Part shown: in pieces, positions 11,970-61,527 of the stretch
Position numbering within the stretch: position 1 is the stretch's first letter
Layout of the letters: each line of letters begins with the position of its first letter
NCBI RefSeq assembly: GCF_003602095.1
Contig: NZ_RAHH01000006.1
Span: forward strand, 124,001-188,000
Direction of reading: 5' to 3'
DNA length: 64,000 nucleotides
Source of the DNA: Rahnella woolbedingensis
GTDB lineage: Bacteria > Pseudomonadota > Gammaproteobacteria > Enterobacterales > Enterobacteriaceae
Translations under genes and position numbers: made by a program
The notes under the pieces: model-generated
Seen by the model: only the letters and a program-made list of their open reading frames with translations
What the model was told of the DNA's origin: nothing
Database searches by the model: none

Positions 11970-12395
11970 TCAGTGGCCCTGATGACCGTCTGGCGGGATC
12001 GGCTGACCGTTCCCGTGATTGTCATTATGACCGCCCTGATGATCCCGATTATCGTGGTGATCACCATTATCATGATGATCGCCGTTGTTCGGATGTCCGT
12101 GATACTGTGGCTGGTTGTGAGGCGGATTACTGTGACCATGTTGCGGCGGTTTGGGATCCCAGCGATTACCATGCCAGTACATACCATGCTCATTGCGCTC
12201 ACCGTAGTGATGGCCCTGATGATCGTGCCACCACTGCGGCGGACGCCAGTCATAACCATCCCAGTAGTAACCACGATGATCCTGATCCCCGAGATGAACC
12301 GATACGCCGGGTACGTTAACGTCAACAGAAACATTTGCCTGCGCGATCACAGGCAAAGCCAGTGCACAACAAAGCAATAAAAGAGATTTTTTCAT
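11970..12395 (-). CDS. Secreted His/Asp/Asn-rich protein, DUF2502 (YpeC-like) N-terminal part
   Basis: 141 aa. A Sec signal peptide ([20 protein letters not shown]) is followed by VSVDVNVPGVSVHLGDQDHRGYYWDGYDWRPPQWW, which resembles the periplasmic DUF2502 family (E. coli YpeC). The C-terminal 60 residues are a low-complexity tract of His, Asn, Asp and Gly with short repeats of the form NGDHHD. Clustered His and Asp suggest metal binding, but this is inference. ATG 12395 is chosen because AAGG sits ten bases ahead; an ATG three codons earlier lies too close to that ribosome site. It has its own terminator. In E. coli no gene lies between ihfA and btuC. Confidence 0.75.
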   Translation of the reverse strand: MKKSLLLLCCALALPVIAQANVSVDVNVPGVSVHLGDQDHRGYYWDGYDWRPPQWWHDHQGHHYGERNEHGMYWHGNRWDPKPPQHGHSNPPHNQPQYHGHPNNGDHHDNGDHHDNRDHQGGHNDNHGNGQPIPPDGHQGH

Positions 12396-12664
12396 AATAG
12401 TCATGCCTTCTTTATTTTTATGACGTGCTTTTTATATCAGGCAGTAAAGACGGAGAATATAAGAGTACGGCGTATTTTCGGATAACTTGCTGTGGCCTTA
12501 CAATAAAAATACAAATATATCCTGACTGAAATACATCAGCAGGATGAAGGCCATTAACTATTCAATTCTTATTACGATACTAACAAATCTTAACGCAAGC
12601 CTGACAACAGCGCCGTTGCCTTTTATTTATAATTAAGACGTTTACTCCAATAAAGGACATTACT

Positions 12665-44135: not shown

Positions 44136-44378
44136 ATGGGAAAATCGATTATCCGGATTGGCAGTTACGAAATTGACGATGCACATCTTTCTACGCCTGA
44201 AGCAAAAGGCGGCGATAAGGTGCATATTCCGTGCAAGTCAGACCCTGATTTGTGCATGCAACTAGATGCCTGGGATGACCACACCAGCGTTCCGGCAGTC
44301 CTCGATGGCCGTCATTCTGTGTTGTATAAGGAAAAGTACGACGAACAGAAAGATGAGTGGATCATGCGACTGGAGTAA
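44136..44378 (+). CDS. yebV: YebV family protein
   Basis: 80 aa. PCKSDPDLCMQLDAWDDHTSVPAVLDGRHSVLY and the C-terminal DEWIMRLE match E. coli YebV, a small conserved protein of unknown function (DUF1480). GAGGAG precedes the ATG. In E. coli it also follows rsmF. An 11-bp inverted repeat (44383-44412) without a T-run follows. Confidence 0.92.
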   Translation: MGKSIIRIGSYEIDDAHLSTPEAKGGDKVHIPCKSDPDLCMQLDAWDDHTSVPAVLDGRHSVLYKEKYDEQKDEWIMRLE

Positions 44379-44435
44379 CACTGCATGGCGAACGAAAATG
44401 TGTTCGCCATGCCGCTTGCGGTCGGTCGACTTTGA

Positions 44436-45080
44436 TTACTGTTGAGCTCTTGAAACCAGTGAAATCCCCCGCCCTGCGAAAAAGCGCGCGAAGGTTTCCA
44501 CAGGCAACGTGACATCCTGCTGAGTAGAAATATCGTGACCGGACGGATTATGGAAGGTCACAGATTGATCATCAGCCCGGGTTACCAGAACCAGATGACC
44601 GCCTCTATGCGGTGGTGTGGACTCAGGAATACGGACAGAAGGATGCACTGAAGCAATAAAAAATCGATGTTCTGCCAGCTGACCGGCAATGTCTTGAGCC
44701 GAAATATCCACTTTCACCTGCGCCGAAATACCCAGCTCCTGCCGGACATATTCAACAAAAGGCGCGTAAATAAGCCCCTTAATGTTGTCACCCTCGCGAA
44801 CATACGCTCCGTATGACAGGCTTCGGTAAGTCAGTTTCAACACCGGTACCACGTTGCCTGAAACGGCTGCCAGCACCATCTTCAGGCAGCACATTCCGCA
44901 AACATGATTCGCCCACTCGATAAATTCCCGCTGTTCAGCCGCACCCGACTTGGTCCACAAACTGATATCGCTAAGCTGAATATCTCCGGCAATAATCCCG
45001 GCTGCGCAATCAGGATCTTCCCACTGACTAAAATAAGGGACGGCGGAAGAAGGAGAAAATGAACGCTGATTAACGGGCAT
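44436..45080 (-). CDS. C39-like papain-fold cysteine peptidase, function unknown
   Basis: 214 aa with no signal peptide and no transmembrane segment. A peptidase C39-like core is suggested by NHVCGMCCLKMVLA (candidate catalytic Cys61), the His162 in GGHLVLVTRAD and Asn178 in FHNPSG, in the order Cys-His-Asn/Asp of that fold. Cys64 and Cys65 beside the candidate nucleophile are notable. C39 domains usually process double-glycine leaders within an ABC exporter, but no transporter is here, so this is a stand-alone form of unknown substrate. It is convergent with yebV and separated from the ASCH gene by a terminator. Confidence 0.7.
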   Translation of the reverse strand: MPVNQRSFSPSSAVPYFSQWEDPDCAAGIIAGDIQLSDISLWTKSGAAEQREFIEWANHVCGMCCLKMVLAAVSGNVVPVLKLTYRSLSYGAYVREGDNIKGLIYAPFVEYVRQELGISAQVKVDISAQDIAGQLAEHRFFIASVHPSVRIPESTPPHRGGHLVLVTRADDQSVTFHNPSGHDISTQQDVTLPVETFARFFAGRGISLVSRAQQ

Positions 45081-45136
45081 GACATATTCCTGAACGACAA
45101 AATGACAACATCAGGTTGATCATACAACTGACGAAT

Positions 45137-45163
45137 GAAAAGGCCTGATGTCAGTATCAGGCC
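45137..45163 (-). terminator. Terminator after the ASCH gene
   Basis: Stem GGCCTGAT/ATCAGGCC (45142-45163), 6-base loop, then TTTTC on the minus strand. It isolates the ASCH transcript from the C39-like gene. Confidence 0.8.
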
Positions 45164-45173
45164 CCTGGAAGAT

Positions 45174-45566
45174 TTAGAACTTTTCGACCATCCGGAACTT
45201 CATCAGCAACAATGGCATAGTCGGCTCAAACATTTCATACTCTTCGAAGAAACGCTGATGCTCTTTGCGCCAGTAAGCCAGCGTCCGGTCACCTTCCCCT
45301 TCTTCCCAGGCATGCTGTTCCGTTACCTGGTCAAAAGGCACTTGTTTCACTTCGGTCAGTTGCACGGCACACACCGGATTGCTGCGGCCATCAACTACCA
45401 CAAAGATTTCGCCCGGCTCAGGTTCAGGATCATCGTCAAGATTTGAACAGGTGGCGGTTTTTGTGCCAGCAATAACACGCTTAGCCAGTTCGTCAGCTGA
45501 CGATTCAGTATCACCAAACGACCAGCGCTCTGCGTCCCTGTATTTGAGTGGGATCTGCGGAATCAT
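45174..45566 (-). CDS. ASCH-domain protein
   Basis: 130 aa, a single ASCH (PUA-like) domain. WSFGDTESSADELAKRVIAGTKTATCS and GEIFVVVDGRSNPVCAVQLTEVKQVPFDQVTEQHAWEEGEGDRTLAYW fit this family, and the segment EGEGDRTLAYWRKEHQRFF is its C-terminal signature. ASCH proteins bind RNA or nucleosides; some act as ribonucleases or acetylcytidine amidohydrolases. The activity here is not known. It lies between two terminators, so it is probably a single-gene unit. Confidence 0.8.
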   Translation of the reverse strand: MIPQIPLKYRDAERWSFGDTESSADELAKRVIAGTKTATCSNLDDDPEPEPGEIFVVVDGRSNPVCAVQLTEVKQVPFDQVTEQHAWEEGEGDRTLAYWRKEHQRFFEEYEMFEPTMPLLLMKFRMVEKF

Positions 45567-45620
45567 AATTTATCCTTTCAATTGAGATAGTTCACTGCCA
45601 TTACAGTTAAACATTAGCAC

Positions 45621-45645
45621 AAAAAAACCCGCCGCAGCGGGTTTT
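45621..45645 (-). terminator. Terminator after the WG-repeat gene pair
   Basis: Stem AAAACCCGC/GCGGGTTTT (45624-45645), loop CGCA on the + strand, minus-strand run of seven T. It marks the end of the two-gene WG transcript. Confidence 0.88.
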
Positions 45646-45663
45646 GCAAGCCGGAAGAGTGTC

Positions 45664-48522
45664 TTAAGGTTTGCAGTTATCCGGCATTTTATCCGGCCAC
45701 TGACGTGCGCTTCCGGCACCGTATAAGACGCTAATACCACATTCCTTATCTACACGCGCCAGCGGTTTGCCGGTTTTGTCGATCATCATTGACATGGCCG
45801 GTGTGGAAACGACTGCCACTCCGCTGTCAAACGGTGATGCGGCGCTAAACACCGGCGCTATAGCGAAGTTGCCAAGCGCATCGACATAACCATAATTACC
45901 GTCAGCTTTGGCAAATGCCAGCCCGTCGACAGGCAAACCTAAATCAGGGTAAGAGACGCCATCAGTGGGTTTCCCCTGCCCGTTAATCCAGGTTTTGGTT
46001 CCATCGGTCTTTGTCAGCACGGCGTGGTCACCCACCATCTGACTGGCATGCCCCTGAACGGTGAGAACCAGTTTCCCGGTATTATCGACATAACGTGTCG
46101 CAGGCTCGCTATCCTGCGGATCATAGGATACCGACCAGGCGCTCGCCGGTGGCATATTCCACTGACCTTCCGGCATAGCTGCCACACGCACGCCTTTGTC
46201 ATCAATCAGTTCATAGCCCGCTGGCGTGGAGCGCAAAGCGCGCCCCTGCACGAAAGCAGAACCCCGGCTATCACCGACAGGCTGAATTTGCCATTCGCCC
46301 TGCGCAGACAAATACCCTTGCTGCGGCTGGCGCGATAATTTCACCCAGTCTCCCAGCGCACTGATACGTGTCTGCTGCTCATGAAGCTGAATATTACCTT
46401 TGGCATCCAGAAGCCAGGACTGACCAGCCGCAGACGTGGCCAGAATGCGTCCGTCATTAAACTGATTTACGGTGAGTCCGGCTGTAGGTTCAATTCTTGG
46501 CTGAGCGTCATTGCCGATGATTTCTGCAAGAACAGCGGATACCGGCTGGCCTTCGGTTGCAGGTTGTGTGAGTAACCAAAGGGCGGAGTTAATACGACGG
46601 GCATCGGCATATTTCGGTGCAACAACGACTTTACCCTGGCTGTCGAAGATCCCCCACAGTCCTTCAGGCGTTTTGAAGGCGGCCAGACCCTCTGAGTAAT
46701 CGCCCACATCCTGATAAGCCGGTTGCAGTACCGTTTTCTGGCTGGCGACATCATAGATGCCCCACAGAACGCCCTCCGCTGCCGTTTCACGATAGCGGAA
46801 CCAGCCATTGCCGACAGATTCAATCTCAAACACATTCGGCAAATCGTAATGCTTACCGGCGTGATCAAGTGCTGTCAGTTTTCCATCCAGATAATCCAGA
46901 GCGTAGCCCTGTACAAAAGGAGAAATATTATCTTCAGTCAGCGGGATAATCACTTTGCCCTGCGCATCCACCACGCCGGTGCCATCGGTGGTTCTTACAA
47001 TGAACTGACCGATGTTGTTGCTGCTGTCAGCAGGTTCAATATCCTGCCATTTGGTATCAAGCTGAAGAGAGCCGTCGGGGCGCAGGAAACCCGCACCGTT
47101 TTTGCTGGCCGCATCAGCAGGGCGAACCAGCGCCAGTGGCGATGAAGCAGAAGGGGAATTGATGGGAGCAGTCAGAGGTTCGATCCTGCTGCCATTCAGA
47201 GTGCTGATACTCTTCTGATTCAGCAAGGCTTTGCCTGTGGTATCAACCACATTCACCACATCACCTTGCTCATTGCGCAACCATAAACGGTGATCGATAA
47301 CTTCTGCGTTGGAAATTTGCCCCAGCCAGCCAACATTCTGGGTGCCACCAATGACTCCGCCAGAAGGAGCAATAATGGCATTCACCTTTTTCTGCTCACC
47401 CTTAGTCGTTATCAGGAACTCACCGGTATTTTGCTCCCAGGGCTCACTGCCAGCAGGCAGCGATAGGGCTTGTTTACGCCCCGGAACATACAAAGTAAGA
47501 GAGTCTTTGCTGGCAGGATATAAAACATAGTCACCGGAAACGTGCAGAGCTTTTGTGTCAGTTTCACTGAAGCTGGCAATCACAGTGGCGGAATTATCCA
47601 GCAGCTTGATGCCATCGGCCGTTTTCGCCAGCCAGAAGGCACCGGTTTCCTCGCTGACAGAAAGATATTTCTGCTCGTCCTGAACTCCGTCAGTACGGAT
47701 TAAGGTAATGCCGTCCGCTTTTTTCGCCAGTGCGACAGAAGGATTGTGTGGATCCAGAGTGATGGACGTGTACTGAGGCTGAACGCGCCAGGCCAGATTT
47801 CCATCCACAATGCCGTAGCCTTTGCTGTCATCGACAGCAATGAACAGATCACCGGAACCGAACGGCTCTGCCACTTCCATTTTGTCCGTCGCCACATGGC
47901 GAACACCATCTGGTGAGAGCAGTACGCTGTTAAACGTCAGGCTGAGCCGGGCAGGAACGCCATTACTCAGAACAGCGTCATCCACCAAATCATCCAGTGC
48001 TTTACCGACCTGAACACCTTTGCGGTCAATTATCTGAGACTTTCCATCCACCTTAACAACAGCCAGACCGGCTTCAGTAAAGGGTTGTGCGCGGTCAAAG
48101 GACGGCTGAATCATCCAGTTTCCAGTCAGATCGATATAGCCCCACTTCCCCTGCTGCATGGCAGCGGCAGCACCGAAGTGATAATCCCCGACCTGCTCAA
48201 AAACAGGTTTGATAACGAGCTGCCCCTGATTATCCAAAAAACCCCAACGCTCATCCGCTGCTTCAGCGGAAGGTAAAAGCACAGCGGCACGCCCTTCACG
48301 AACGTCACGGATACATAAATTTTGGGTTAATGGCAACGCTGCACGTAGCTGGGTATCAGCCTGGGAAGCCGGCAACGGTGCCGAACATGCTGGTGCAGAT
48401 TCAGCCTTTACGGGTTCAGCCGCAATAGCGGAGCCGGTCAGCGTCAATAAGGCCAATGTACTGCCGGTGTTCAGCGCGCAGCGAAGTGCGTGGCGTAGCC
48501 TTGAAGGTTTGCTGACAATCAT
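45664..48522 (-). CDS. Large secreted WG-repeat protein, second of a coupled pair
   Basis: 952 aa. Signal peptide with cleavage likely at AIAA|EPVK, then a run of WG-type beta repeats. The clearest are ERWGFLDNQGQLVIKPVFEQ (near residue 91), GKWGYIDLTGNWMIQPSF, DGTGVVDAQGKVIIP, VLWGIYDVASQKTVLQPAYQ, GLWGIFDSQGKVVVAPKY and GNYGYVDALGNFAIAPVF. Other repeats have lost the WG pair. The C-terminus, CGIS...WPDKMPDNC, ends with paired cysteines, a pattern shared with the upstream paralogue. The start ATG overlaps the stop of that gene by one base (TAATG). No enzymatic motif or membrane anchor is visible, so a periplasmic or exported binding scaffold is the simplest inference. Confidence 0.82.
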   Translation of the reverse strand: MIVSKPSRLRHALRCALNTGSTLALLTLTGSAIAAEPVKAESAPACSAPLPASQADTQLRAALPLTQNLCIRDVREGRAAVLLPSAEAADERWGFLDNQGQLVIKPVFEQVGDYHFGAAAAMQQGKWGYIDLTGNWMIQPSFDRAQPFTEAGLAVVKVDGKSQIIDRKGVQVGKALDDLVDDAVLSNGVPARLSLTFNSVLLSPDGVRHVATDKMEVAEPFGSGDLFIAVDDSKGYGIVDGNLAWRVQPQYTSITLDPHNPSVALAKKADGITLIRTDGVQDEQKYLSVSEETGAFWLAKTADGIKLLDNSATVIASFSETDTKALHVSGDYVLYPASKDSLTLYVPGRKQALSLPAGSEPWEQNTGEFLITTKGEQKKVNAIIAPSGGVIGGTQNVGWLGQISNAEVIDHRLWLRNEQGDVVNVVDTTGKALLNQKSISTLNGSRIEPLTAPINSPSASSPLALVRPADAASKNGAGFLRPDGSLQLDTKWQDIEPADSSNNIGQFIVRTTDGTGVVDAQGKVIIPLTEDNISPFVQGYALDYLDGKLTALDHAGKHYDLPNVFEIESVGNGWFRYRETAAEGVLWGIYDVASQKTVLQPAYQDVGDYSEGLAAFKTPEGLWGIFDSQGKVVVAPKYADARRINSALWLLTQPATEGQPVSAVLAEIIGNDAQPRIEPTAGLTVNQFNDGRILATSAAGQSWLLDAKGNIQLHEQQTRISALGDWVKLSRQPQQGYLSAQGEWQIQPVGDSRGSAFVQGRALRSTPAGYELIDDKGVRVAAMPEGQWNMPPASAWSVSYDPQDSEPATRYVDNTGKLVLTVQGHASQMVGDHAVLTKTDGTKTWINGQGKPTDGVSYPDLGLPVDGLAFAKADGNYGYVDALGNFAIAPVFSAASPFDSGVAVVSTPAMSMMIDKTGKPLARVDKECGISVLYGAGSARQWPDKMPDNCKP

Positions 48523-51281
48523 TAATTACCCCCGGTACCACAAGCGGGTGCTTTGGCAGGCCAAAGATAAGCACCTTTCGCATCCACGATGACGCGCTGA
48601 TTACAACGCACCTGAATTTTTGCCTGAACATTACCGTCGGCATTAAGCAAATTCACGACACCCTTGCCGCCAGCCCAGGCACGCTTCTCACTAAAATCAG
48701 TGGCCCAATCAAATTTAGGCAAAATCGCAAAGCGCCCCGTGGTATTGATATATCCCAGCAGGTTGCCGTAGGTTGATTTTTTCATGGCGGTCGCAAAATT
48801 GTTGCTCATCGCTCCGACCTGATCGAAGTATGAACCAATCAGCTTTTTGCCTTGCTGATCGACAAATCCATACAGGCCTTTCTGATCACGCAGAGGAATA
48901 ACACCTGAGCTGGCTTTGTCAGCCAGCAGGCTGTCAGGCCCGGCGAAACGCTGGATTTCATTGCCATCGTTGTCATACAAAACGGTTTCACCGGTTACGT
49001 CATCGTTCATGACCAGACGAGCCATTGAATTCAACGGTTGTGCCTGATCGAAGCCCTCTGCCGAAGCGCCATGGTCATTAATCAGCGTAGTTCGTCCATC
49101 ACTGACTGCACGGCTCAGATTCAGAGGTGCAACGAAATTAAATTCGGCGGTGTAAACTGGTTGAATCTGCCAGTCACCCTGACTGTTAATCGCCCCGTAG
49201 TGCGGTGAAAAACTCAATTTTATCCAGTCACCCTCCACAGAGCTCGAAGAAGCGTTAATGGCTTTACTGACCGGGAAACGCCCTGCGTTATCAAGTAACG
49301 CCACGCCCCCTTCGGAAGGTTGAACCAGCCAATGGTTCTGCCCGACAGCTTGCGGTCTGGCGAGTAAATCCGTTGCGAGTACTTGTCCGCTTTGGGCGCT
49401 GTAGAGACTGTAATGGCTGGAAAGCGCACCGCGTTCTCCCGGCTGATCGTTATCAGAAAGGGTGAAAGTGCCCTGACCGATATATTGGAATTTACCGCTT
49501 CGGTCCGCATCCGGTGCTATTGCCCAGGTGCCATTCGTGTTGAGAACACCCCATCCGTCATCAGCTTTAGCCAGGGCATAACCCTCGTTGAAAGCATCGA
49601 TTTCAGTGAACTGTGGTGCTGCCTTAATGCTTTTGCTCGCAATATCCCATAAGCCCCAGCGCTGCGCTTCTTTTTCACCCTCGGTGTAATAGATCAATCC
49701 TGATGACAAACGCTGGGCATTTTTCTCAATATCTGCGGGGATCTCGACGGCATTGCCATTTCGGTCAATAAGATGCTTAACATCGACATTGTTGGCGTTA
49801 TCAACGGCCCAGGTGTAATCACCTTCAAAAGGAGTGATCTGGGTATACGTTGGCTGAATAACCCACTTGCCTGAAGCATCGACAGCACCCACTTTTTTAT
49901 TTTGAGTGTGGATGATGAGCGGCGCCTGAGACCCGGTAGTTTCTACTGATGCCCATTGGGGATCAGACAAGACATTCCCCTGAGAAGTGAGAATAGCTGG
50001 CGGTTTGCTTGCATCTGCAGGCGTCAGAACGGCCCAAGGGAGGCTGTGCGCCGCATCGCCGTTTGATTCCGGTAATGTAGTCACATCATCTGTCATCGCC
50101 ACTGTGCCCAGCGGCCGTAGCTTATAGTCTTTCAGTGCAGCAAGCGTGGCATCATTAAGCAGCGCCACACCATTGTTGTCATAAATCTGCGCAACCTGGG
50201 GTGCCTTACCTTCTGTTTGCATAACCCAGAGATGGTTGCCCTGTTGCAACACCTGCGGCTTGTTAACTTTCAGCGAAACAATTTGGTTATCTGCACCGAT
50301 GATAACGATGCCTTTGCTACCCGTTCCCAGCGTTGCCTTTCCCCAGACCAAAATATTTTCAGTCTGATCAGCAGGAATATCCTGCACTTTTTCCAGTTTG
50401 CTGCTGAGTAGCTGTTTATTATTATCGTTGCCCGTCACCAGCCAGCTGCCGGAAGCGAGCGGTCGCACTGATTTGTATTGTTCTTTGTTTAAAGCAACAC
50501 CCTGGCGGTCGACAAACGACCAGAGGTTCTTGGTTTTTACCGCAACGACGTCGCCGTTAAGCTGTGGTTCATCCCGGGTTTTGAGTACCATCGGGTTTAT
50601 CGCCCAGTCACCGTTCTCATCGAGATACCCCCAGTAACCTTCTTCTGCAGAATCACGTTTTTTGGCGGGTATCAGCCCTGCCTGTGGCAAATCCAGCGCC
50701 ATAACATCATCAGGTAAAGACAGAGAGCGATCCGTAGATGCATTCCACAACGCAGGTGATACCTGAGTTTGAACACTTGCCAGTGCCTGACCGCCGGTAA
50801 AACCACGGCTATCAAGCGCAACAGCAAACGGCAGCGTTTTAATCACCGCTCCTTTCTTGTCTATCAGCGCCAGACGATTATCGGTCACCACCAACGCAGT
50901 ACCTTGCGCATTGAAATCAGTGGCGCGCGTAAAGCGTGGCTCAATGACCCAATGGCCTTTTTTATCGATATACCCGAACTGATCGCCCTTTTTAACAGCG
51001 GCCAGGTCATTCACAAAACCCCGCGCTGCGCTGAAATCAGGTTTGATGACCATATGTCCGGTAGCATCTACGTAACCCCACTGAGGTTCGCGTGACAGGC
51101 TGACCTGAACAGGCGAAAGCCCCTGCTGGAAAGGCAACTGGCAATCTTTTGCGGTTTTTGCATTGCCACATGCCCGTAACTGCGCGTCATCCGCATGTGC
51201 TGGCATGTTAAAAAAAGCATTCAGAACCAGGGTTAACGCGCTGAAATTTCTGATGTATTTGAATTTTTCGGAGCAATTCAT
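48522..51281 (-). CDS. Large secreted WG-repeat protein, first of a coupled pair
   Basis: 919 aa. Signal peptide with cleavage likely at PAHA|DDAQ, then an N-terminal Cys pair (ACGNAKTAKDC) and WG repeats: PQWGYVDATGHMVIKPDF, DQFGYIDKKGHWVIEPRF, GYWGYLDENGDWAINP, KKVGAVDASGKWVIQPTY, QRWGLWDIASKSIKAAPQF, DGWGVLNTNGTWAIAP, PHYGAINSQGDWQIQPVY, GLYGFVDQQGKKLIGSYF and NLLGYINTTGRFAILPKF. The C-terminus VRCNQRV...WPAKAPAC resembles that of its partner. AAGGGC stands before the ATG. The pair seems to have arisen by an old duplication. Function unknown; the WG repeat (PF14903 type) is usually found in uncharacterised secreted proteins. Confidence 0.82.
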   Translation of the reverse strand: MNCSEKFKYIRNFSALTLVLNAFFNMPAHADDAQLRACGNAKTAKDCQLPFQQGLSPVQVSLSREPQWGYVDATGHMVIKPDFSAARGFVNDLAAVKKGDQFGYIDKKGHWVIEPRFTRATDFNAQGTALVVTDNRLALIDKKGAVIKTLPFAVALDSRGFTGGQALASVQTQVSPALWNASTDRSLSLPDDVMALDLPQAGLIPAKKRDSAEEGYWGYLDENGDWAINPMVLKTRDEPQLNGDVVAVKTKNLWSFVDRQGVALNKEQYKSVRPLASGSWLVTGNDNNKQLLSSKLEKVQDIPADQTENILVWGKATLGTGSKGIVIIGADNQIVSLKVNKPQVLQQGNHLWVMQTEGKAPQVAQIYDNNGVALLNDATLAALKDYKLRPLGTVAMTDDVTTLPESNGDAAHSLPWAVLTPADASKPPAILTSQGNVLSDPQWASVETTGSQAPLIIHTQNKKVGAVDASGKWVIQPTYTQITPFEGDYTWAVDNANNVDVKHLIDRNGNAVEIPADIEKNAQRLSSGLIYYTEGEKEAQRWGLWDIASKSIKAAPQFTEIDAFNEGYALAKADDGWGVLNTNGTWAIAPDADRSGKFQYIGQGTFTLSDNDQPGERGALSSHYSLYSAQSGQVLATDLLARPQAVGQNHWLVQPSEGGVALLDNAGRFPVSKAINASSSSVEGDWIKLSFSPHYGAINSQGDWQIQPVYTAEFNFVAPLNLSRAVSDGRTTLINDHGASAEGFDQAQPLNSMARLVMNDDVTGETVLYDNDGNEIQRFAGPDSLLADKASSGVIPLRDQKGLYGFVDQQGKKLIGSYFDQVGAMSNNFATAMKKSTYGNLLGYINTTGRFAILPKFDWATDFSEKRAWAGGKGVVNLLNADGNVQAKIQVRCNQRVIVDAKGAYLWPAKAPACGTGGN

Positions 51282-51798
51282 CCGATGCCCTTATAACTGG
51301 ATAAAATAGGAAAGTGTATCGCACGCTTTTTTTTCATCACCCGCAAAAAGGGTGTGTGAGACGGTAATAAATCCGATAATAATCAATTTCAAGCGCGCGC
51401 ACATGTTATACGTCTATAGGGTGTCAGCTTGTGAAAGAAAAAGCAGCTAATTTATTACACTGTAACGAATGAATACACTTCATCACTTCGCTCAAAGGTA
51501 CGCTACAGGTGTTACTATTCGATTTTCTTCAGCACCTTTCGTTAACTCCATTATTACATTTTGACTTCTTTCCTAAAAATAGGATCGTTTTCTCTAACAA
51601 GCATAAAAATGGCGAATAATTAATCTCTAAAAAATTCTTATAACTTTTGATTAAAGTCATTATTCCCCCAGCTTTAGTCTGGTTTTATAGATAAATGAGC
51701 GTTGTGTGACCAATATCACTTCCGGTCTGTGTAGCTTAAAACCTGGCAGTGTTCGGTTACAGCGTATTTCAGGTGCTTTATCTAATTGGGGAAGAGTC
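51282..51798. other. Long AT-rich divergent region between WG pair and DUF1883-like gene
   Basis: 517 bp without a supported gene. It is AT-rich, with several T and A tracts, and should carry the divergent promoters of the WG pair and of the DUF1883-like gene. An open frame from 51706 only extends the next gene upstream past its ribosome site. I could not define an operator by eye. Confidence 0.5.
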
Positions 51799-52056
51799 AT
51801 GCCTATTGTTCGAGCCAGATTGAATCTGTTTGGTGGCGACACCGTCGTCATACGTTGTTCAGAAAAATGTCACATACATCTGATGTGTGAAAATGAGGCT
51901 GAGCGAAAAGGACGTCACTCAGGTTTCGGCGATATCTTGACGATTAGCGATCAAAATACGGCTTATGTAGGGATCCCCTATAAAGGCATCTGGGATGTCC
52001 TTATCGATTCCAAGTGCGACTCTCTGGAGCATTCCATCAGCTATCTTCCTGCCTGA
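51799..52056 (+). CDS. Small DUF1883-like protein
   Basis: 85 aa starting MPIVRARLNLFGGDTVVIRCSEKCHIHLM, with GGGGAAG just before the ATG. The pattern of GGDTVVIRCS near the N-terminus, a variable central part and YVGIPYKGIWDVLIDS near the C-terminus resembles DUF1883, a small beta-rich domain of unknown function sometimes fused to TIR or other signalling domains. Here it stands alone, has no signal peptide, and is divergent from the WG pair. Similarity is judged by eye, so the family call is moderate. Confidence 0.6.
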   Translation: MPIVRARLNLFGGDTVVIRCSEKCHIHLMCENEAERKGRHSGFGDILTISDQNTAYVGIPYKGIWDVLIDSKCDSLEHSISYLPA

Positions 52057-52111
52057 TCATCCTCTTATCCTTCTTATATAAAAACAGCCTTCATCTCTGC
52101 TTATATATTTC

Positions 52112-52139
52112 TCAGGCGAATGGGAAACCATTTGCCTGA
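52112..52139. other. 12-bp stem-loop with GAAA tetraloop
   Basis: TCAGGCGAATGG/CCATTTGCCTGA with loop GAAA and one G-T pair. There is no T-run on either side. It lies 56 bp after the DUF1883-like gene and may protect or weakly terminate its mRNA. The rest of the 52057-52425 spacer shows no gene. Confidence 0.5.
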
Positions 52140-52425
52140 TCTTCATACCTTGCAGGCCGACATTTTTCTGCCCCTTAAAGTATAGGCCACCGGGAATATC
52201 ATCTACCGGCAAAGTGAATTCTTGCGTAACATCGCGTAAGAAACTTTAGCTTATTACATCAGTTACATAGCGTTATTGAATTGAACATTCCATAAATTCA
52301 AAATCCTCTTTTTTGGCCTGATTAATTGATTGCCAGCGGTGATTTCACATTGCATTCTGTTGATGTAACGACGTGGCGCCGGTCAGTTCACCGGACTTCT
52401 TTCAGGCAAAAACAGATATCTCATA

Positions 52426-53604
52426 ATGAATAATAAATCACTTTGCACCATCGCTGACGTAGCTGATCTTGTTCCTGAGCTGCGTAAAGTTCGCCAACAC
52501 CTGCACCAACATCCGGAACTCTCCAATGAAGAATCGGCAACGGCTGCCCTCGTCGCTGAAAGATTAGAATCGCTGGGCTATCAGGTAACGACTGCCGTTG
52601 GCGGCTATGGCGTGATCGGTACAATGGCGCTGGGCAATGGTTCACGCAGCATTGGTATCCGCGCGGATATGGATGCTTTGCCTATAACGGAACAAACGGG
52701 CTTGAGCTACGCCAGCCAGAACCCGGGAAAAATGCATGCGTGCGGACATGACGGCCACACCACCATGCTGCTGGGTGCTGCCGAACAGCTGGCGCGCAGC
52801 AAAAAATTTTCGGGCACCGTACACCTGATTTTCCAGCCAGCCGAAGAAATCGGTTTTAACAGCGGCGCAGAGCGCATGCTTGCAGAACAACTTTTTGAGC
52901 GATTCCCGTGTGATGCCGTTTACGGATTACATAACCATCCGGGATATCCGGTCGGAAAAATGATGTTCCGCTCAGGGCCGTTTATGGCGGCCTGCGACAC
53001 CGTTAATATCACTATTCATGGCAAAGGTGGTCATGCGGCTCGCCCTCACATGACTGTCGACCCTATTCTGGTTGCCGGCAGCCTCGTAGTTGCATTGCAG
53101 TCGGTGATTTCACGTAATATCGACCCGAATGAAACAGCCGTAGTCACGATAGGTTCATTACACTCCGGTCATGCAGCGAATGTCATCCCGGAAACTGCTC
53201 GTCTGGAAATGAGTGTCCGTTCGTTCGATCCGCAAGTGCGCAAAATCCTCGAGCAGCGAATTTGTCAGCTGGTGGAAAATCATGCGGCCGGATATGGCGC
53301 GCGGGCCGAAATCGAATATGTGCCCGGATATCCGGTACTGGTGAATCATGATAAGGAAACAGCATTTGCAACCGAGGTCGCAAAAGAGTTACTGGGTGAA
53401 GAGAATGTGATCGATAATCTGCCGCCAATTTCAGGCAGTGAAGATTTTGCTTATTTCCTGCAGAACAAACCGGGCTGTTTCCTGCGCCTGGGCAACGGAG
53501 ACAGCGCGGTTTTGCATAATCCGGCTTACAACTTTAATGATGAAAGCCTGAGTTTCGGCACAGCTTACTGGACGCGTCTGGTTGAACGTTATCTTGCAGA
53601 TTAA
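52426..53604 (+). CDS. M20D family amidohydrolase (hippurate/N-acyl-amino-acid hydrolase type)
   Basis: 392 aa, cytoplasmic dinuclear metal hydrolase. The expected ligands are in HACGHDGH (Cys106, His108), FQPAEE (Glu140, Glu141), GLHNHPGYPVG and the C-terminal SGSEDFAYF...NPAYNFNDE. The lid domain has HGKGGHAARPHMTVDPI. The family covers hippurate hydrolases, aminoacylases, IAA-amino-acid hydrolases and N-acetyl-diaminopimelate deacetylases; the substrate cannot be chosen from sequence. The start is ATG 52426 with a weak ribosome site. It is convergent with the extensin-like gene. Confidence 0.92.
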   Translation: MNNKSLCTIADVADLVPELRKVRQHLHQHPELSNEESATAALVAERLESLGYQVTTAVGGYGVIGTMALGNGSRSIGIRADMDALPITEQTGLSYASQNPGKMHACGHDGHTTMLLGAAEQLARSKKFSGTVHLIFQPAEEIGFNSGAERMLAEQLFERFPCDAVYGLHNHPGYPVGKMMFRSGPFMAACDTVNITIHGKGGHAARPHMTVDPILVAGSLVVALQSVISRNIDPNETAVVTIGSLHSGHAANVIPETARLEMSVRSFDPQVRKILEQRICQLVENHAAGYGARAEIEYVPGYPVLVNHDKETAFATEVAKELLGEENVIDNLPPISGSEDFAYFLQNKPGCFLRLGNGDSAVLHNPAYNFNDESLSFGTAYWTRLVERYLAD

Positions 53605-55340: not shown

Positions 55341-55625
55341 ACTCATTTTTATGTGTAGCCAATTGATTTAGTTTGTTGTTTAAATTGGCCAGTGGTTATC
55401 TCATTGTTATTCATGTTGTTAGTTTCCATTACTTTGCTGTTTTTATTTTAACGAATAACCTATTTTCTTTGTCCTATTTCCAAACGGTAGCGACATTAAT
55501 ATCCTGTTTAGCAGCATAACGGACTGTGCTATGCCTGTTATTGTCTACTGCACAACACCAGCAGTCTGTTGTTATAGGCGGCGGGGGTTAAAAAAGATTA
55601 TTTACGTCTAAGGATTTTGAACACC
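55341..55625. other. Spacer before the Ig-repeat gene
   Basis: 285 bp of AT-rich DNA with no gene. It ends with AAGGA 11 bases before the ATG of the next gene and should contain its promoter. Confidence 0.45.
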
Positions 55626-58052
55626 ATGGCTAATAAAAAAGATAATGAAGCGACTACGAGCACATCAGTGGGAAAAGATTACGATACCTACACACATATT
55701 GACGGTATCACCGATTCTAACGGCAACTCGCAAGGCCCAGTGTTAAATAATGGCTATACCGACGATTTGCAACCGACCCTTACAGGGTTCCTTCCAGGTG
55801 GCGAAGGCGAGTCGTTGCGTGTCTACCTGAATGGCAATGTCATTGGTTACGCTGAAGTAGGGGACAATGCCAACTGGAGCTTCACACCGACCACACCGCT
55901 CGAGCCGGGCAAGACCTATGATTTCCAAGTGTTCTTGCTAGATCCGGCAAATGATAACTCACTTTGGCCATCCAATATCTACACCATTCATACCACTGCT
56001 CTGGATCAGGATGTGGTCCCAACGGCTCCGACAATCATTAATGTCATTGATGACGAGGGTAGCCAGAAAGGAAACGTCGCTCAGGGTGGTAAAACAGATG
56101 ACAGCCAGCCCGAAGTTTCCGGTAAGGCTGATGCGCATAGCGTCGTCACAGTCTCTGTTACTTCCCCGAAAGGCATCACTACTGTATTAGGCAGTGTGGT
56201 TACCGACGACAATGGACACTGGAGCTATCAGCTTGATGGTGCTCAAAGCATCACCAGCACCTTCGGTAAATGGACATTCTCAGCGGTTGCGTCAAATGAG
56301 GTTGGCAATAGTGATGCCAGCAATAAATACAGTGTTGAAAGCGTTGCTCACAATGCAGATGATTTCACGCCACCGGATGCCCCTCTTATTGACAGCTTCA
56401 CGGATAATGTAGGTGTTCATAAAGGTAATTTCGCGAGCGGCCATGTTGCTGATGACACCACTCCAACGTTAAACGGACATGCCGAAGCTGATTCGGTTGT
56501 GAAAATTTATGAAGGCAGCACTCTTGTTGGCTCAACCACAGCAAATGTCGATGGCGTCTGGAGCTTCACTCCAACAGTGAGCACTGACGGCAAGCACACT
56601 TACACTGCGACGGCGACAGACCCGGCAGGCAATATCAGTGCAAAATCTCAGAGCTTCGTGGTTGATGTTGACACAACTACCGAACGTCCTGTTATTACTG
56701 ATTTCTTAGACGATTCAGGCGTAACACAGGGTACGTTCCACAGCGGCGATCGCAGTGATGACCTCACACCAACATTCCACGGTACCGCAGAGGCCAACAG
56801 TCTTATCCATTTATGGGCCTACGGTCCGGGCTGGGTAAAACACGACATGGGTACAACCAGAGCTGATGATAATGGTCACTGGACGAAGACGCCGACGTTC
56901 TCCAGCACGACTCGAACAGGTAATTGGACTTTCTACGCGACAGCCGTTGACACAGCAGGTAACTATAGCAGCCAAAGCTCCAAATTCGTGCTTGTCCATG
57001 TGGGAACGAATGGAGAGGATACGACGCCACCGGATGTGCCGACTATCAATGCTGTTCATGATGGTGCGACAGTCTTTGATAGTGGCGTCTTCACTCAGGA
57101 CAAAACACCGACCCTGGACGGCCAGGCAGAAGCCAACAGTATTGTTAAAATTTACGATGGTATTACCGTTATGGGTTCTGTTGCCGCAGATGGCAATGGA
57201 AACTGGAGCTTCACACCTGCTGCTCTTGATGATGGTGCACACACCTTTATCGCGACCGCAACGGATGCGTCCGGCAACACCAGTGGTAAGACACCCGGCT
57301 TTGTCATAAATGTCGATACTCACAATGATGTGCCGGTTGTTATTGGTTTGCAGGATAACGACGGAACGTACACTGGCCTGGTAAAAAACGGTGGTACGAC
57401 GGATATCTCTCATATCAGCACCTTGACGGGTACTGCAGAGGCAGACAGTATTGTCCACTTCTTACGCCGCGGCCCACGGCAGAATACCAGCTACAGTGTG
57501 CAGGCCGATCATGATGGTCACTGGACGCTGCCACTAGTATTACCTTGGCAGGGTAAGTACACCTACATTGTCTGGTCTGTCGATCAAGCGGGCAATACGA
57601 GTAGTGGCTCAGCAAGTTATAGCGTTAAACATGTCGCCGCTAACCAGGACAGCACCGGGCATGTTGATACTGTAAGTCTGGAGCATGCGGATGTGAGTGC
57701 TGTGCATGCCCTGACAGTGGCGACGTTGAATGACGCTCAGGAACAGACGCTGACACAGCATTCGCAGGTCGACCTGCACAATGGCGCTCAGGATACACTC
57801 GTACTGACCCTGAACGATATTCTGAACCACGTGCAGGACAATCTCTTCACGCAGGACGGTAAGTCCCAGTTGGCTGTCACTGGCGATAAAGGTGATGTGG
57901 TTGAGCTGAAAGTGGAAGATATTGCTCACGCTGAATGGCAGGATACCGGTGCAGTAACAGCAGGCGGCGTTCAGTATGAAGTGTATCAGCACACCGGCAG
58001 TGATGTTGAGCTGCTGGTTCAGCATGGTCTGGAGTTACATCAGGTTTCATAA
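55626..58052 (+). CDS. Bacterial Ig-like repeat protein, short BapA-type adhesin-like
   Basis: 808 aa. About six Ig-like repeats of 95-115 residues from residue 25 on, with repeated motifs such as DDTTPTLNGHAEADSVVKIY, GVWSFTP and HTYTATATDPAGN. The C-terminal 120 residues (LTLNDILNHVQDNLFTQDGKSQLAVTGDKGDVVEL...GGVQYEVYQH) look like the end of large BapA-like, type I-secreted Ig proteins. There is no N-terminal signal peptide, which agrees with type I secretion, but no exporter genes are nearby. It is far shorter than most relatives (thousands of residues). ATG 55626 is used; an upstream TTG has no better support. It follows an IS1 remnant, so transfer or internal repeat loss is plausible. 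Confidence 0.85.
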   Translation: MANKKDNEATTSTSVGKDYDTYTHIDGITDSNGNSQGPVLNNGYTDDLQPTLTGFLPGGEGESLRVYLNGNVIGYAEVGDNANWSFTPTTPLEPGKTYDFQVFLLDPANDNSLWPSNIYTIHTTALDQDVVPTAPTIINVIDDEGSQKGNVAQGGKTDDSQPEVSGKADAHSVVTVSVTSPKGITTVLGSVVTDDNGHWSYQLDGAQSITSTFGKWTFSAVASNEVGNSDASNKYSVESVAHNADDFTPPDAPLIDSFTDNVGVHKGNFASGHVADDTTPTLNGHAEADSVVKIYEGSTLVGSTTANVDGVWSFTPTVSTDGKHTYTATATDPAGNISAKSQSFVVDVDTTTERPVITDFLDDSGVTQGTFHSGDRSDDLTPTFHGTAEANSLIHLWAYGPGWVKHDMGTTRADDNGHWTKTPTFSSTTRTGNWTFYATAVDTAGNYSSQSSKFVLVHVGTNGEDTTPPDVPTINAVHDGATVFDSGVFTQDKTPTLDGQAEANSIVKIYDGITVMGSVAADGNGNWSFTPAALDDGAHTFIATATDASGNTSGKTPGFVINVDTHNDVPVVIGLQDNDGTYTGLVKNGGTTDISHISTLTGTAEADSIVHFLRRGPRQNTSYSVQADHDGHWTLPLVLPWQGKYTYIVWSVDQAGNTSSGSASYSVKHVAANQDSTGHVDTVSLEHADVSAVHALTVATLNDAQEQTLTQHSQVDLHNGAQDTLVLTLNDILNHVQDNLFTQDGKSQLAVTGDKGDVVELKVEDIAHAEWQDTGAVTAGGVQYEVYQHTGSDVELLVQHGLELHQVS

Positions 58053-58106: not shown

Positions 58107-58340
58107 ATATGCGGTAGAGCGTGATTTGCCAATCTTTGTCTGGTGGCCAAACTCAGTAAACCACTTCGCCGGTTGCGTAGGTGGCGATAGCTGCTTTCGC
58201 ATAGTGTATTGTCCGGTACATCTGCTAAGGGATTAGGTGCAGGATGAGCTAGAAAGGCGCGAACATTGTAACCTTGAAGGTAAGTGAAAATAACCTAAGT
58301 GATTGTTTTTACTATAAGTGGTTGATTTGAAAAAAGGGCA
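58107..58340. other. Spacer between Ig-repeat gene and sdsR
   Basis: No gene recognised. In E. coli a long antisense RNA (SraC/RyeA) starts opposite sdsR; its promoter would fall near here on the + strand, but I cannot define it. Confidence 0.4.
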
Positions 58341-58439
58341 AAAAAAAGACCGAATACGATTCCTATATTCGGTCTAGGGAAATGGCTCTTGGGAGAGAGC
58401 CGTGCGCTAAAAGTTGGCATTAATGCAGGCGGTTAAGCC
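58341..58439 (-). ncRNA. sdsR: Small RNA SdsR (RyeB)
   Basis: About 99 nt on the minus strand. From CTGCATTAATGCCAACTTTT to CTCCCAAGAGCCATTTCCCT it is practically identical to E. coli SdsR as I recall it, and it ends in the same terminator hairpin (58347-58375) with a paired substitution and seven U. A SigmaS-like -10, CTACTCT, lies at 58451-58457. SdsR is a SigmaS-dependent Hfq-bound RNA that represses outer-membrane protein, mutS and other mRNAs. Its place next to yebY is conserved. Confidence 0.95.
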
Positions 58440-58585
58440 GTACAACTTAAAGAGTAGACGACAGATGACTAATTTCCACCCAGTTTGAAACATAGTGATA
58501 ATAACAATGATGTATTATTTTCATTGTGTGACAACATACGCAAAACATGGGATTAACATCAGTCGTTTACTGGCGGCACGGCGCT

Positions 58586-60337: not shown

Positions 60338-61527
60338 ATGGTCACCCCCGTGTCAGGTTCATCCGCAGGTCGCTGTGCCGTTCATGTCATCAATAATCTG
60401 TCGTCGCAAAACCAGAAAGTCACTACGTAACACCTAAGAGCTAACAGTTCGTCCCTGTTGGCTCTTTTTATTGGGTGAAAACTGTGCGATGGGTTGTCAC
60501 CGACCAGGCTATTCGGGCCAGTTTGTTGGCCAGCCCGCAGGCCACTACGTTCGAGTGATGCCGCAAGAGCTGCGCCTTCACCCAGTCAGCCAGCCGCCCC
60601 TGATTATGTTCAAGTCGTTGCATAAAAGCACGGGCGCATTGCACCAGAAGGCGTCGCAGATTTTTATCCCCATGCTTACTGATGCCCATTAGCGTACTTT
60701 TTCCGCCAGTGCTGTACTGACGTGGGACTAACCCCGTCGATGCAGCAAAGTCCCGACTGCTGGCATAACTTTTTCCATCGCCAAACTTCGTGGCTAAAAG
60801 GCTTGCCGTGATAAGTCCAACGCCAGGAATAGTCAGCAGGCGCTGCGCGGTATCGTCATCCGTCATGTGGTTTTTTAACTCTTGTTCGAGCTCTTCAATC
60901 TGTTCAGTGAGGTAGGCGTAATGCTGATGGAGTCGCATAAGTAATCGCGCTAAATAAGGCGGCAGTTCGTGCTCTTCAAGCACCGCGGCAAGACGCCTGA
61001 TAACCGCGATGCCGCGCGGCATGCTAATGCCAAAGGAAAGCGTGCATCTGGTTGGTGGTTTTAACGCGGTCTCTGACGAGCGCGTCACGGACGCGATGTA
61101 GGGCTGACATAGCCTGCTGGTCTTCGGTTCGCGGAGTCACGAAGCGCATAGAAGGTCGTGATGCGGCTTCGCAGATAGCCTCGGCATCAATGAAATCGTT
61201 CTTGTTGCTTTTAACAAAGGGGCGGACAAACTGAGGAGAGATGAGTTTCACGTGATGCCCGAACTGGCTGATGTGCCGAGCCATAAAATGAGCACCCGCA
61301 CATGACTCCATCACAACGGTAGAAGCGGCACAAGTAGAGAGAAAGGCGGTTAACGGGTTGCGGGAAAACTTCTTACGTAGCAATGCATTATCATTTTATC
61401 CTGAGCGTGGACATGGAACGAATGCTTGCCGAGGTCAATACCGATGAGCGTAACGTTTTGCATGATGATCCCCTTCAGAAAGAAAAACACCCTGTCAGCG
61501 TACCGCTCACAGGGTGGGGGTGACCAT
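60338..61527. mobile_element. IS110-family insertion element (IS1111-like), about 1.19 kb
   Basis: A 12-bp inverted repeat, ATGGTCACCCCC at 60338-60349 and its complement at 61516-61527, encloses an IS110-type transposase. Near-terminal short repeats of this kind are typical for the IS1111 subgroup of IS110. True ends may lie a few bases further out. It separates yobA from ftnA. Confidence 0.78.
60468..61463 (-). pseudogene. IS110-family transposase, broken by two frameshifts
   Basis: Three consecutive frames together give one DEDD transposase: MQNVTLIGIDLGKHSFHVH (start ATG 61463), then KKFSRNPLTAFLSTCAASTVVMESCAGAHFMA...SNKNDFIDAEAICEA, then FGISMPRGIAVIRRL...TIPGVGLITASLLATKFGD...STGLVPRQYSTGGKS. 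The first frame break lies near 61383-61405 and the second near 61035-61050, where AFL runs straight into FGIS as if about eight bases were lost. The active Asp and Glu residues remain, but the product cannot be made as one chain. Confidence 0.88.

Follow-up and report, generated by a model that had tools for sequence, protein, structure and literature searches.

We find, on the minus strand of a 64,000-nucleotide stretch of the Rahnella woolbedingensis genome (contig NZ_RAHH01000006.1, positions 124,001 to 188,000; the whole stretch is here called the window, and all positions follow its numbering), two adjacent and overlapping genes, A and B, that encode giant WG-repeat proteins. Their arrangement goes beyond chance, being retained in all 28 loci that we compared within the family and in a distant gammaproteobacterium, G962. 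The features of the locus are as follows.

48522..51281, minus strand: gene A, upstream member of the pair, encoding a putatively secreted WG-repeat protein of 919 residues (open reading frame; WG_beta_rep E 1.7e-53)
45664..48522, minus strand: gene B, downstream member, encoding a putatively secreted WG-repeat paralogue of A of 952 residues (open reading frame; WG_beta_rep E 1.9e-47)
48520..48524, minus strand: stop-start overlap TAATG, with 48522 as the single shared base (from the sequence)
48529..48533, minus strand: GGGGG, a Shine-Dalgarno-like site of B within the 3' end of A, 7-11 bases ahead of the B start codon
45624..45645, minus strand: terminator-like hairpin after B (consensus scan)
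51415..51452, minus strand: conserved upstream block, about 134-171 bases ahead of the A start
51192..51281, minus strand: putative Sec-type signal peptide of A, residues 1-30 (AHA/DD), recognised by eye; N-termini in the alignment are similar
48421..48522, minus strand: putative Sec-type signal peptide of B, residues 1-34 (AIA/AE), recognised by eye; N-termini in the alignment are similar

An initial annotation of this DNA had described two adjacent open reading frames of 919 and 952 residues, correctly in both position and length, but had left out the strand: both genes lie on the minus strand, with A upstream and B downstream. The one-base TAATG overlap that it reported is likewise present, base 48522 being common to both frames.

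WG_beta_rep (PF14903) is the sole Pfam family to exceed its own cut-off in either protein, scoring 178.7 bits in A and 159.4 bits in B, over 6 stretches in each, against a curated whole-protein cut-off of 25.6 bits. Weak matches of A to Cadherin_5, Aegerolysin and DUF6953 fall below the respective cut-offs, and NCBIfam returns no match for A or B, in agreement with the earlier statement that no other domain is present. A repeat hidden Markov model built from A and B themselves marks 9 stretches per protein; the i-E is below 0.01 for 8 of those in A and for 6 of those in B. The WG repeats are real, yet they make up a minor part of both proteins, and since just these eight and six are clear, most of A and B is not recognisably WG; the initial annotation was right that repeats are present and overstated them as many. 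Its claim of paralogy holds up, as the two proteins are 25% identical and hhalign pairs them at E 3.4e-73 over 841 columns, so that by sequence comparison A and B are full-length, distantly related paralogues. All 12 PF14903 matches in the host genome fall within the pair. Searches of the PDB by single sequence gave non-significant matches (E 0.44 and 0.64), while profile searches gave two lectin chains for B, also non-significant (E 0.098 and 0.11), and nothing for A.

Conservation within the family was assessed from the region of every genome with a full-length B in our genus and family samples, which gave 27 loci and, with the window, 28 (20 family and 14 genus genomes, minus 6 in both lists; the 5 family genomes with weak partial matches were excluded). 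Half of these (14) belong to the host genus and 14 to four related genera. In 28/28 loci A immediately precedes B on one strand and the two frames overlap. The overlap is TAATG or TGATG, of one base, in 14/14 loci of the host genus (window included), and ATGA, of four bases, in 14/14 of the other family loci. The initial annotation had proposed to score joint occurrence, order and overlap; all three are present at each of these loci, with an overlap of one or four bases. The purine-rich site ahead of B pairs with the tail of the 16S RNA at -4.9 to -10.8 kcal/mol in 28/28 loci, a range given with no shuffled control. Purifying selection acts strongly on A and B alike: the ratio of nonsynonymous to synonymous substitution rates (dN/dS) has a median of 0.066 over 93 pairs for A and of 0.088 over 87 pairs for B. 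In a mirror-tree comparison, the nonsynonymous distances between pairs of A genes track those between the corresponding B genes (r = 0.99), a result that we do not take as evidence of contact, since shared ancestry alone suffices to produce it. Gene A is 96% identical to its counterpart in Rahnella bruchi, and B follows A at each of the 14 loci of named close relatives that carry gene A (7 from Rahnella, the others from Rouxiella, Ewingella, Edaphovirga, Serratia sp. M24T3 and two further Enterobacterales).

The A-B pair is rare. Our genome surveys are samples that overlap one another, and full-length A was detected in 3/394 genomes of the order sample (5 others had partial WG matches), while full-length B was detected in 20/392 genomes of the family sample (5 others had weak partial matches) and in 14/14 of the genus sample. 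Class samples yielded full-length A in 2/369 genomes and full-length B in 2/303, both times in the window's own genome and G962; the phylum sample yielded full-length B in 1/349, the own genome, and the order of G962 yielded A in 1/54, G962 itself. For the class and phylum samples, the B profile includes the G962 sequence. In no sample was a full-length A seen to lack B (order and class samples) or a full-length B to lack A (family, genus, class and phylum samples); the other WG proteins there were partial matches, and none was a full-length A or B. Homologues that occur mostly singly or beside unrelated neighbours, which the initial annotation had named as the pattern that would speak against it, were thus not what these samples contained. 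Additionally, a DNA-level blastn search of E. coli with gene A found nothing, and a tblastn search of plasmids with B returned 12 records, all below 60% identity and each matching less than 80% of the query at any one place.

The distant case, G962, is a gammaproteobacterium of another order, and the GC content of its locus is 67%. It carries A and then B, intact and in the same order, with the overlap GTGA (L132, 3479-9153), and WG_beta_rep is the only Pfam match of either protein at E <= 0.001. A tree of 22 sequences places the 11 A and 11 B proteins in two clades, each with 100/100 support, and the other ten genomes branch alike in the A half and the B half; in both halves the branch of G962 is long and its composition unusual, which makes its exact placement less sure. 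A profile of A built without G962 gives 522 bits to the G962 A and 69 bits to the best stretch of its B. Because the A and B clades each contain G962, the duplication most likely predates the divergence of the family and G962 lineages. The pair has most likely been kept together since that divergence, by descent or by joint transfer, and on these sequence relationships the A-B pair appears to be an old two-gene module. Its presence in G962 may reflect either horizontal transfer or wide loss.

Inspected by eye, each N-terminus resembles a Sec-type signal peptide, as the initial annotation had also read it, without a lipobox; the +1 residue at the apparent cleavage sites, AHA/DD in A and AIA/AE in B, is not the cysteine of a lipoprotein, and no obvious membrane anchor was seen in either protein. 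After residue 25, exactly four cysteines are present in A in 28/28 family genomes and in B in 27/28, the remaining B having five, and in each protein two lie near the N-terminal end and two near the C-terminal end. In seven-row alignments that include G962 the cysteine columns are invariant, save the last of A, where the G962 cysteine lies a few residues off. Both proteins have the conserved, even and sparing cysteine count of secreted disulfide-bonded proteins, a pattern that fits disulfides formed in an oxidising compartment; together with the signal peptides seen by eye, the four conserved cysteines of each protein suggest that A and B are secreted. The predicted model of B resembles β-propellers, and that of A does so only weakly. 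Among the Foldseek matches listed for both models are DDB1, PorZ and the BT4663 sensor domain, at about 8-12% identity and a global TM-score of at most 0.20; the rows of B include DDB1 chains with E from 1.3e-11, but with TM about 0.1-0.15. A propeller fold of A and B is consistent with these models, and the range 76-933 in the structure comparison of B fits joined termini only indirectly. The absence of a fold family from a VIA-align 2 comparison carried no evidential weight.

A terminator-like hairpin does follow B on the minus strand, at 45645-45624, as had been claimed for the end of the pair; the consensus scan of the region finds 19 such sites against 8.8 expected. Such a hairpin is mainly characteristic of the host genus, because a simple scan finds a hairpin before a T-run 3' of B in 14/14 host-genus loci versus 2/14 of the others. 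Upstream of A, about 1.1 kb (51281-52426) separates the gene from a divergent M20 peptidase gene. In an alignment of 360 bases of this upstream region, positions 51415-51452 stood out as a block that is strongly conserved in 9/10 aligned upstream regions (the exception is Edaphovirga), and it is possibly a promoter or a regulator site. A scan for σ70-like promoters over 44300-52600 gave four sites (8.9 expected), all on the plus strand, and therefore none points into the pair. The window has three Rfam matches, all at least 7 kb away from the pair.

Beyond B, at 44436-45566 on the minus strand, lie an ASCH-domain gene (130 residues) and a Peptidase_C39_2-like gene (214 residues); at another locus, L181 (genome G417), the ASCH and C39-like matches overlap slightly. 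Both the ASCH gene, downstream, and a yebV-like gene are neighbours of the pair in 28/28 family loci. Eight fetched regions of 12-13 kb from relatives that lack the pair have ASCH without A or B, and of these yebV is present in 6/8 and the C39-like gene in 4/8. We rejected the ASCH gene as a third member of the module, since it occurs without the pair (58 to 67% identity in these relatives) and is undetected at the G962 locus. The C39-like gene, present by clustering at 22/28 loci and also in those 4/8 pair-less regions, was rejected likewise. ASCH, yebV, rsmF and M20 were all sought at the G962 locus and none was detected; a PAS-GGDEF protein about 2 kb beyond B, a 30% match, is the sole one of the tested window neighbours matched there.

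What might such a pair do? We tentatively favour, at a little short of an even chance, a two-subunit, disulfide-fixed propeller scaffold of the periplasm or the outside, in which A and B act together and are translationally coupled. A and B would leave the cytoplasm by Sec and, once in the oxidising periplasm or farther out, take the shape of multi-bladed β-propellers, two disulfides per protein fixing the N- and C-terminal segments. The overlapping stop and start codons, together with the ribosome site inside A, would tie synthesis of B to that of A, although the 'fixed ratio' of the initial annotation is not implied by coupling alone. We hypothesise that A and B physically assemble as unlike subunits of one binding scaffold, and that the pair would be an autonomous, self-sufficient two-gene module. 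Joint action of A and B has moderate support from comparative sequence data, resting on essentially one independent case. A bolder version, in which A and B are obligatory subunits of a new heteromeric Gram-negative machine made of giant WG β-propellers only, forming a double scaffold closed by disulfides whose self-sufficient cassette is also present intact in a distant order, possibly by horizontal transfer, seems to us rather unlikely.

Other readings have to be weighed beside joint action. Within the clade, the pair is inherited largely vertically at a single chromosomal site and represents about one event, whether gain or loss, because the same ASCH and yebV-like neighbours accompany it in 28/28 loci and this neighbourhood persists without it; the independent evidence therefore amounts to essentially one case, G962. 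That uniform setting, one inheritance in effect, would equally suit a linkage without functional meaning, in which a tandem duplication was followed by descent together at one site, and tandem paralogues are indeed common. We nevertheless regard such meaningless linkage as very improbable, given that G962 holds the pair in another context, that purifying selection on both genes is strong, and that a duplication apparently older than the G962 split has left a long opportunity to lose one copy. More serious, though still doubtful in our estimation, is the possibility that A and B are co-expressed paralogues that work separately on related tasks, each as a monomer or homomer (e.g. binding two different envelope or extracellular ligands), the operon serving co-regulation and not assembly. 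Their 25% identity and early split, the lack of any sign of A-B contact in the present data, and the frequency of overlapping genes in bacterial operons all speak for separate jobs; however, order and overlap retained in 28/28 loci and in G962 exceed what co-regulation alone needs, and single-gene cases are missing from the samples.

A further alternative concerns location and role, namely that the two proteins belong to an exported surface or matrix system (e.g. carbohydrate- or surface-binding, on plants, in soil or on other hosts) and not to a periplasmic scaffold. Signal peptides without a lipobox or obvious membrane anchor, as judged by eye, are compatible with such a system, as is the pattern of WG-repeat Pfam occurrence among commensal Acidovorax in the excerpted text of PMC8767351. 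We consider it improbable, since no export machinery was noticed among the open reading frames that neighbour the pair, whether those of the window or those of G962, in an annotation that was unsystematic, and the lectin match in the PDB is non-significant (E 0.098).

Elsewhere in the window, an IS110-family transposase at 60468-61383 (minus strand) is split between two frames into pieces that overlap, with matches to Transposase_20 and DEDD_Tnp_IS110, and looks broken. An 811-residue protein built of bacterial Ig-like repeats (six Big_13 stretches) is encoded at 55617-58052 (plus strand), and the antisense small RNA pair SraC/RyeA and SdsR/RyeB follows shortly after it, at 58337-58482. At 11970-12404 (minus strand) lies a DUF2502 protein whose long tail is rich in histidine and asparagine; long open frames overlap it on the opposite strand.

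In excerpts from the PubMed Central literature, a corpus that leaves subscription papers and preprints outside its scope, we found neither a biochemical function for bacterial PF14903 WG repeats nor a conserved overlapping pair of giant WG proteins. The excerpted passages mention WG proteins just in passing (PMC8855297, PMC8078820, PMC8767351, PMC9957290), and PMC4701759 and PMC5350142 mention KWG repeats; one of the passages gives the WG-repeat Pfam as found only in 40% of commensal Acidovorax strains (PMC8767351). A published gammaproteobacterial WG-repeat protein, likened here by its description in an excerpt, has a signal peptide as A and B appear to do, but of lipoprotein type, whereas theirs, judged by eye, lack a lipobox. 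A minimal conserved pair in cultured environmental bacteria would offer a good place to learn what WG proteins bind, and the assembly, if true, would extend the known envelope machinery by a large scaffold made only of propellers. The resemblance of A and B to DDB1, PorZ and the BT4663 sensor domain, all of which we take to be multi-propeller scaffolds (DDB1 presumably with three propellers, one closed by both termini), is one of models only and implies no kinship. BamB, which we take to be the periplasmic propeller of the β-barrel assembly machinery (BAM) complex and, presumably, chain B of the BAM entries, is much smaller than A and B (350-364 residues among the matches listed), and its match lies near the tool's 'common' range. 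With proteins annotated as 'WG repeat-containing protein' (PF14903), A and B share the repeat itself, well above the curated cut-off, but the other WG relatives that our searches turned up were partial matches, none of them a full-length A or B. WG-repeat proteins and propellers are known kinds, and what appears to be new, within the literature covered here, is a conserved overlapping pair of giant ones.
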